Shown here: piece after piece, positions 2,527-4,698 of the stretch
How positions within the stretch are numbered: position 1 is the stretch's first letter
Layout: every line of letters begins with the position of its first letter
Notes under the pieces: generated by a model
Seen by the model: the letters and a program-made list of their open reading frames with translations, nothing else
What the model was told of the DNA's origin: nothing
Databases searched by the model: none
Assembly (NCBI GenBank): GCA_900128585.1
Contig: LT642291.1
Location: 1-25,225, forward strand
DNA: 25,225 bases
Direction: 5' to 3'
Source of the DNA: Stramenopiles sp. TOSAG23-3
Lineage: Eukaryota > Sar
Translations under genes and position numbers: made by a program

Positions 2527-4698
2527 ATGCAGATATTTGTGAAAACGTTGACGGGGAAGACGATTACCTTGGACGTCGAGCCCTCGGACACCATTGAGAA
2601 CGTCAAGCAAAAGATTCAGGACAAGGAAGGGATCCCCCCCGACCAACAACGGTTGATTTTTGCGGGGAAACAGTTGGAGGACGGCCGAACGCTCTCCGAC
2701 TACAACATTCAGAAGGAGGCCACCCTCCACCTCGTCCTTCGCCTCCGGGGGGGGTGCGGCATCGTCGCCTACCTGGGGAAGCGCCAGGCCGTCGACGTCC
2801 TTATCAAGGGCCTGAAGCGCCTCGAGTACCGGGGGTATGACAGCGCCGGGGTCGGGGTCCTTGGCCCAGGGAACACGCTCCAGGTATGCAAGAAGATAGG
2901 CAAGGTCAAGAACCTCGCGGCCGCCGCGAAGAGCGCCGAGGCTCAGCTGACCAGCACGATCGGGATCGCCCACACCCGGTGGGCGACCCACGGGGAGCCC
3001 AGCGACAGGAACTCCCACCCCCACACGAACGCGAGCGGGACCCTCAGCTGCGTCCACAACGGGATCATCGAGAACTACGAGACGATCAAGAAGCGGTTGC
3101 AGCAGAAAGGGTATACGTTTGTCAGCGACACGGACACGGAGGTCCTCGTCCACCTCGTCGAGGACGTTCGAAAGAGCGCCCATTCCTCGCTGACCCTCGA
3201 GGAGGCCATCGGCCTGGCCCTCTGCCAGGTCACCGGGACCTTTGGCGTCGTCTTCATCGACTCGGAGAACCCGGACAAGTTGATCGGGGCGCGGCACGGG
3301 TCGCCAATGATCCTTGGGGTCGGGAAGGAGAACGACGAGTGGTTCCTCTCCAGCGACGCCGCCGCGATCATCGAGTACACGAACACCGTCGTCTACCTCG
3401 AGGAGGGGGACATCTGCACCTTGACCCGGGACGGGTACACGATCGGGTCCTTGCACACCACCCGGGAGTCGTACAACGCCTCCATGTTCCAGGCCCTCAT
3501 GAACCTTGCCAAGGCCCAGGGGGACACCGACGAGCTCAAGCACAAGAGCAAGCAGCTCCCGGAGCACGAGCTTCAGATGAGCATCGCCGCGATCGAGAAG
3601 CAGGGGTACAAGCATTTTATGCTCAAGGAGGTCATGGAGCAGCCCCGCGTCCTTGAGAACTGCATGCGGGGCCGCGTCGACGCCTCGAACAACTTCATCC
3701 GCCTCGGCGGCCTCGTCCACGTCATGGACAAGATCGTCGCCGCCCGGCGCTTCGTCATCTGCGCCTGCGGGACCTCCTGGCACAGCGCCCTCGTCGGGGA
3801 GTACCTCTTGGAGACCCTCTGCCGGGTCCCCGTCGAGGTCGAGTACGCGAGCGAGTTCCGGTACCGCGAGCCGATCCTCTTCAAGGACGACGTCGTCATC
3901 GTCATCTCCCAGAGCGGGGAGACCGCCGACACCCTCGCCGCCGTCCGGGAGGCGAAGCGCCAGGGGTGCCTCACCCTCGGCCTCGTCAACTCCGTCGGGA
4001 GCACGATCGCCCGGGAGACCGACGCCGGGGTCTACCTCCACGTCGGCCCAGAGATCGGGGTCGCGTCCACCAAGGCATTCAGCGGCCAGATCTGCGTCCT
4101 CACCATGATGGCGCTCATGATCGCCAAGGAGAAGAAGACCCTCGAGGACCAGGTCATCAACGACTACCTGACCCACCTCCAGGCGATCCCCAGCGCCATC
4201 GCGACCGTCCTCGAGCAGACGGCCGTCATCCAGACCATTTCCAAGACCTTTCGGTACGCGAGCAACTTCCTCTACCTTGGCCGCGGGTTCAACTTTCCCG
4301 TCGCCCTCGAGGGCGCCCTCAAGCTGAAGGAGATCTCGTACATCCACGCCGAGGGGTACCCCGCCGCGGAGATGAAGCACGGCCCCCTCGCCCTTATCGA
4401 CCGGTTCATGCCCGTCGTCATGATCGCCCCCAGCAGCGACCCGACCTACGAGAAGACCAAGGCCAACATCAAGGAGGTCCTTGCCCGGCAAGGGAGCGTC
4501 ATCGCCATCACGGAGGAGGGCAACCACGAGCTCGACGCAGAGTGCGAGCACGTCATTTACACCCCAAAGGTCCCGGAGTGCATGCAGCCCCTCGTCACCG
4601 TCATCCCCCTTCAGCTTCTGAGCTACTACATCGCCGACCTCCGCGGCTGCTCCATCGACCAGCCCAGGAACTTGGCCAAGAGCGTCACCGTCGAGTAA
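2527..4698 (+). CDS. Ubiquitin-GFAT fusion (ubiquitin + glutamine:fructose-6-phosphate amidotransferase)
   Basis: The product is 723 aa. Residues 1-76 are a complete ubiquitin ending LRLRGG, with all seven Lys and the L8/I44/V70 patch intact. It differs from the common sequence at positions 16 (D), 28 (Q) and 65 (A). Residue 77 is the Cys of a full 647-aa GFAT, which makes glucosamine-6-phosphate from fructose-6-phosphate and glutamine, the entry step to UDP-GlcNAc. The glutaminase domain has CGIVAYLG (77-84), EYRGYDSAG (100-108), HTRWATHG (149-156), HNGIIENY (177-184) and SDTDTEV (200-206). Two SIS isomerase domains follow, with CGTSWHSA (414-421), [10 protein letters not shown] (460-469), [19 protein letters not shown] (595-613) and the C-terminal [13 protein letters not shown]. 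The ATG at 2527 is the ubiquitin Met. No Met lies at the junction, so GFAT must be released by a deubiquitinase. Codon choice is very biased (GTC, CTC, GGG), as in a highly expressed gene. Confidence 0.97.
2749..2757 (+). other. Ubiquitin Gly75-Gly76 / GFAT Cys1 processing junction
   Basis: The codons GGG GGG TGC encode Gly75, Gly76 and Cys77 with no linker and no Met. Deubiquitinases cut linear fusions after Gly76. Here that cut would expose Cys as the N-terminal residue, which is the nucleophile of class II (Ntn) glutamine amidotransferases. The cleavage itself is inferred from family knowledge. Confidence 0.93.

Follow-up and report, generated by a model that had tools for sequence, protein, structure and literature searches.

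Ubiquitin joined directly to the catalytic cysteine of a stramenopile glutamine-fructose-6-phosphate aminotransferase: a predicted maturation propeptide

Class II glutamine amidotransferases catalyse through the thiol of an N-terminal Cys together with its own free amine, and ordinary glutamine-fructose-6-phosphate aminotransferases (GFAT/GlmS) start with Met-Cys, the Met being taken off by methionine aminopeptidase. One gene in a 25,225-nucleotide contig of Stramenopiles sp. TOSAG23-3 (LT642291.1; the whole of this stretch is called the window below) encodes a ubiquitin (Ub) directly in front of that Cys, which raises the question of how, and to what benefit, the nucleophile of this enzyme would come to stand first.

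As summarized in Table 1, the gene is a single uninterrupted frame of 723 aa on the plus strand (2527-4698), running from an ATG at 2527, with an in-frame TGA upstream at 2440, to a TAA at 4696-4698. The ubiquitin (residues 1-76, ending LRLRGG) abuts Cys77 of a complete GFAT/GlmS with neither a linker nor a Met at the junction; this arrangement, described in an earlier sequence-only reading of the locus, was borne out by the frame, Pfam and NCBIfam TIGR01135 alike. Pfam detected ubiquitin over residues 3-74 (109 bits), a glutamine amidotransferase domain and two SIS stretches, and the glmS model TIGR01135 was filled from model position 1 to 607 over residues 77-723 (762 bits against a cut-off of 418.05), so that the GFAT is complete and starts exactly at Cys77. 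When aligned to E. coli GlmS (1jxa, chain residue 1 = Cys), Cys77 paired with Cys1 and the glutaminase motifs including TDTE were conserved; there was no indication of any other GFAT start. The full-length glmS equivalog match above the cut-off, with the catalytic Cys and the glutaminase motifs, thus identified the C-terminal partner as a GFAT/GlmS, and the complete N-terminal ubiquitin ending in RGG and joined directly to a second protein identified the whole as a ubiquitin fusion precursor. The same domains make up E. coli GlmS and human GFAT1, where the catalytic residue is Cys1; in the precursor encoded here it is residue 77, and its N-terminal place in the mature enzyme is predicted. Because the first Met after ubiquitin Met1 is residue 261, no in-frame ATG gives an unfused GFAT starting at Cys77 without proteolysis.

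Table 1. Features of the Ub-GFAT gene (positions are those of the window)
Feature	Position	Strand	Basis
Ubiquitin moiety, residues 1-76, ending LRLRGG	2527..2754	+	Pfam; identical in P0019 and P0041; G53D in P0043
Junction Gly76 (GGG)/Cys77 (TGC), where a deubiquitinase is predicted to cut and expose the catalytic nucleophile	2752..2757	+	Codons; comparison of the -1 residue
Complete isomerizing glutamine-fructose-6-phosphate aminotransferase (GFAT/GlmS), residues 77-723	2755..4695	+	NCBIfam TIGR01135
Glutaminase (class II / Ntn) domain, residues 77-305, including Cys77	2755..3441	+	Alignment to E. coli GlmS 1xff (chain residues 1-220) and 1jxa
Isomerase part, two SIS stretches, residues 351-723	3577..4695	+	Pfam; alignment to 1xff and 1jxa
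Stop codon TAA	4696..4698	+	Frame translation

Gly75-Gly76 are encoded as GGG GGG inside a run of eight G (2747-2754) that is followed by the TGC of Cys77 (2755-2757), and ubiquitin is a repeated sequence, both of which would favour an artefact, with a ubiquitin gene and a GFAT gene falsely joined during assembly or annotation. The junction, however, recurred in relatives. Protein searches, in which up to 8000 candidates were scored and the best 120 listed, so that distant or independent Ub-GFAT fusions may be missed, returned three protein clusters with full-length fusions of 723 aa, namely P0019, which differs from the window protein by one residue and is listed with a contig of another length (13,965 bases), P0041 (88%) and P0043 (86%); the remaining 117 of the best 120 matches covered 10-14% of the query, in the ubiquitin region only. 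The motif GG/CGIVAY was present in all four aligned rows (the window protein, P0019, P0041 and P0043), and this conservation excludes a chance junction. Moreover, the fused ubiquitin and a second ubiquitin gene that starts on another contig (C405) are identical in protein over 26 residues but use different, synonymous codons at 13 of them, and the fused copy is thus neither a recent gene conversion nor the misjoined C405 gene. An assembly error, including a faulty join at 2755, was refuted by these two observations, and we assign an artefact a negligible probability. Among the viral contigs scanned with search words from the ubiquitin part, eight loci were found, matching query residues 1-76 at most; the DNA pattern of the junction occurred in eight stretches, none of which continued as GFAT or was preceded by ubiquitin in the frame of the pattern.

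We consider it highly probable that a deubiquitinase cut at Gly76/Cys77 would free the N-terminal nucleophile, with ubiquitin serving as a propeptide. The gene product would be a Ub-GFAT precursor, which a deubiquitinase would cleave after Gly76 during or shortly after translation to yield free ubiquitin and a GFAT with the catalytic Cys first and its alpha-amine free; in the exposure of the nucleophile, ubiquitin would replace the initiator Met and methionine aminopeptidase. As long as ubiquitin is peptide-bonded to Cys77 the amine is not free, and hence the glutaminase should be off, this half of the enzyme working only after the cut. Cleavage, its timing and the inactivity of the uncut form are what we infer. 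Directly seen are the exact GG/C junction, the Gly in place of Met at position -1, the conservation of both and the deubiquitinase genes of the assembly, in which 15 matches to USP-type domains on 10 contigs and one UCH (Peptidase_C12) were detected; on these grounds the earlier proposal that a deubiquitinase activates GFAT appears well supported. Ubiquitin precursors are cut fast, likely co-translationally, with in vitro work on some of them pointing to later cutting (PMC8122580), and a Ub-Cys2-RAP2.3 fusion is cut by plant deubiquitinases as a laboratory technique (PMC10400637). An uncleaved ubiquitin-like fusion is also known, Giardia Ub-eS31, whose glycines are interrupted by an alanine (PMC8122580), and ubiquitin might similarly be retained here as an N-terminal domain of a GFAT fed by free ammonia or controlled through its cap. 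Such retention is very improbable, however, given that the GG is intact with Cys at P1', and that Cys77 was invariant in 66 of 66 GFAT rows, with the other glutaminase motifs conserved.

The rows in question were the window protein (P0001) and 65 sequences hand-picked from the best 120 matches to residues 62-340, with P0019 omitted as a near copy. Of these best 120 matches, five carry ubiquitin by Pfam (P0019, P0041, P0043, P0122 and P0123). The residue preceding the catalytic Cys was Met in 61 of the 66 GFATs and Gly in five, which were exactly the fused ones (P0001, P0041, P0043, P0122 and P0123). Among P0001, P0041 and P0043 the pairwise differences amounted to 0, 1 and 1 of 76 sites in ubiquitin and to 88, 98 and 120 of 647 sites in GFAT, and the two parts differed in their rates of change for these pairs (Fisher p 7e-6 to 1e-4).

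The leaders of P0122 and P0123, by contrast with these intact ubiquitins, have decayed to 35.5% and 38.7% identity to ubiquitin over aligned sites, and are 58.7% identical to each other, as against 89.5% in GFAT (first 230 residues); they nevertheless end in QGG or RGG directly at CGIVAY, and the kept GG/C supports the activation reading. Deubiquitinases read the residues that precede the GG of ubiquitin, and here the position of R72 is altered in both leaders and that of R74 in P0122, so that cleavage of these two leaders is uncertain. A SUMO or other ubiquitin-like origin of the P0122 leader was considered and rejected, since ubiquitin, ubiquitin fusions and engineered ubiquitins make up almost all of the best 60 of 253 PDB matches; its PF00240 score also exceeded its Rad60-SLD score, and the most likely ancestor of the leader is ubiquitin itself or a closely related ubiquitin-like gene. 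In P0123 (625 aa) EQPAV is followed by an intron-like insert, suggesting a genomic sequence from a relative with introns.

In the same group as P0122 and P0123 stand P0124-P0126, which are unfused and start with MCGIVAY. The first tree comprised this eight-row group, 24 hand-picked rows, and E. coli and human, both flagged as long branches; the second comprised 12 hand-picked rows, with E. coli and human left out. The P0122 entry was cut to 300 residues, and that of P0123 retained a tail as well as the intron-like insert; P0125 and P0126 are C-terminally incomplete. In the trees all eight rows fell into one supported clade, with the three Ub-GFATs forming one group (100/96 and 96/96) and, as their sister, a clade in which decayed-leader and unfused forms are intermixed. 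A single clade of the five fused rows, a group named after the first tree had been seen, was rejected (AU p 0.00023). The fork that splits P0123 from P0122 is weak (87/77, second tree): on the tree as drawn, three changes are needed either way, whether the fusion was gained once and lost twice or gained twice and lost once, and were P0122 and P0123 grouped, two gains would suffice as only two changes. An unfused GFAT of 648 aa, P0158 (MCGIFAY), sat on a long branch as sister to the eight-row clade and possibly comes from another eukaryote.

The unfused P0124-P0126 argue against a need for the fusion, since in the wider group GFAT can work without ubiquitin, and they suggest that both states work. 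This would suit a neutral ratchet in which a chance fusion replaced the Met, efficient processing by deubiquitinases made it harmless and loss of the Met start kept it in place, without any regulation; diverse ubiquitin fusions are, besides, present in some protists (PMC6332867). The first 230 GFAT residues of the fused proteins are 82-87% identical, and the keeping of the fusion over such divergence suggests upkeep, but a ratchet predicts the same. We regard this course of events as possible, while inclining against it.

The sequence-only reading had further tied hexosamine synthesis to ubiquitin supply, at one ubiquitin per enzyme. Such a coupling could draw on the intact and strongly constrained ubiquitin of P0001, P0041 and P0043, and on the assembly itself (12.88 Mb, 660 contigs, seemingly incomplete), where a PF00240 scan revealed no other uninterrupted complete canonical ubiquitin. 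Ubiquitin sequence is nevertheless found elsewhere in it: the C405 gene begins and is ended by the contig edge, and on C469 (about 1440-2010) a ubiquitin coding sequence lies in short pieces between small GT...AG intron-like gaps. The C469 stretch is AT-rich, with a kinase-like frame upstream by eye, and may have entered the bin from another organism or a virus. Furthermore, the sister-group fusions carry decayed ubiquitin, an unlikely source of the protein; as these leaders have probably decayed past usable ubiquitin and the GG/C stays, ubiquitin supply is not supported as the general reason for the fusion, and we consider the proposed coupling improbable. Ubiquitin-like domains were also noticed on C409 (2840-3718, minus strand), where a diverged N-terminal one ending in GG precedes a lysine-rich stretch, perhaps a leader-type fusion, and inside long frames on C310 and C225, where they end in RGRGG and IVGG.

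With the glmS model at E values up to 10, no GFAT other than that of the window was found in the 12.88-Mb assembly, nor was a separate unfused gene seen in this incomplete-looking sequence. No methionine aminopeptidase was found in the assembly scan either, the only M24 peptidase match being Spt16, most likely owing to incompleteness or introns; the absences of GFAT and ubiquitin genes carry little weight because the completeness of the assembly is in doubt.

The GFAT part of the gene had a GC3 of 0.95, as compared with 0.79 for its ubiquitin and 0.51-0.78 for seven other genes of the window. With HSP90 as the reference (itself 0.72), the CAI was 0.59 for the GFAT part and 0.44 for the ubiquitin part; among the window genes, a TRAP1-like frame and, at each of five deubiquitinase loci, the longest frame, it ranged over 0.28-0.45. 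This codon bias may hint at high expression, a weak hint given that the GC3 of the HSP90 reference is only 0.76 against 0.95 for GFAT. Neighbouring frames of the window include an N-terminally extended and perhaps mitochondrial ribosomal protein S9 (4868-5605, minus strand, convergent to the Ub-GFAT gene), a frame of 848 aa (9266-11812, minus strand) in which a cysteine domain of ephrin-receptor-like type is combined with a TRP-like membrane part, and a 1895-aa frame with SWM repeats, perhaps a surface protein (14706-20393, plus strand).

GFAT being a large enzyme with biased codons, ubiquitin might act mainly in cis as an aid to folding or expression and be removed afterwards, exposure of the Cys being a by-product; such a role, minor but positive, was reported for the ribosomal fusions Ub-eL40 and Ub-eS31 (PMC8122580). 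It would, however, leave unexplained why the first residue of the partner is precisely one that has to be N-terminal, and why GG/C is kept despite a diverged ubiquitin, and we judge it rather unlikely. That the leaders decayed while keeping ubiquitin-family sequence and GG/Cys suggests selection on exposure of the Cys and not on ubiquitin. We tentatively hold, at a confidence just short of even, that ubiquitin is an obligate maturation propeptide of an Ntn amidotransferase which in the sister lineage decayed to a dedicated leader keeping GG/Cys; on this obligate-propeptide reading, the Ub-GFAT lineage would spend one real ubiquitin per enzyme. Ubiquitin may in addition keep the new N-terminus from being acetylated during translation, a modification that would inactivate the enzyme. 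Nucleophile exposure, help in folding, a neutral ratchet or avoidance of N-terminal acetylation may each be what has preserved the fusion.

The closest precedent is Ub-NiSOD of diatoms, dinoflagellates and other algae, for which the same activation logic has been proposed: there, too, an N-terminal ubiquitin precedes an enzyme with its active centre at its own N-terminus, the Ni-hook H-C-X-X-P-C-G-X-Y, and in diatoms ubiquitin-specific proteases were proposed to activate the hook by cutting (PMC4460010). The two differ in the enzyme and in its chemistry, a metal hook in the one and an Ntn thiol nucleophile in the other, and the window protein falls outside Ub-NiSOD, its C-terminal partner being a GFAT by TIGR01135. 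A PF09055 (NiSOD) scan of the assembly gave no match, but neither did its control. Whereas Ub-NiSOD is almost exclusive to phototrophs (PMC6332867), no chlorophyll-binding protein was matched in the assembly that holds the window, which fits a heterotroph but is not proof of one. The HSP90 of this assembly had its nearest matches at 93-95%, and of the best 120 rows those assigned to an organism were two plants, at 71% and 73%; the host is probably uncultured. Ub-eL40 and Ub-eS31 resemble Ub-GFAT in normally having one N-terminal ubiquitin and a junction cut by deubiquitinases (PMC8122580), but their ribosomal partners need no first residue for catalysis. Lineage-specific non-ribosomal fusions, comparable in this respect to Ub-GFAT, are known from the algae Bigelowiella natans and Guillardia theta as Ub-actin, Ub-P1, Ub-IMP and others (PMC6332867, Tables 1 and 2); the main text of that study names neither GFAT nor any aminotransferase. 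In open-licence papers searched with narrow term combinations we found no description of a Ub-GFAT, and broader combinations brought up no title or abstract on it either, in line with the sequence-only reading, which was aware of none. Ubiquitin fusion precursors as such are already known; what appears to be new is GFAT as a class of fusion partner, in which the cut should create the catalytic nucleophile.

If the activation reading is true, a central metabolic enzyme would owe its activation to proteolysis by a deubiquitinase, and ubiquitin would be the propeptide of a catalytic N-terminal nucleophile. Together with Ub-NiSOD, Ub-GFAT suggests a rule by which ubiquitin fusions are kept with partners whose N-terminus has to be defined and free of Met, and the relatives with decayed ubiquitin and with no fusion offer a natural comparison series that makes this rule testable.
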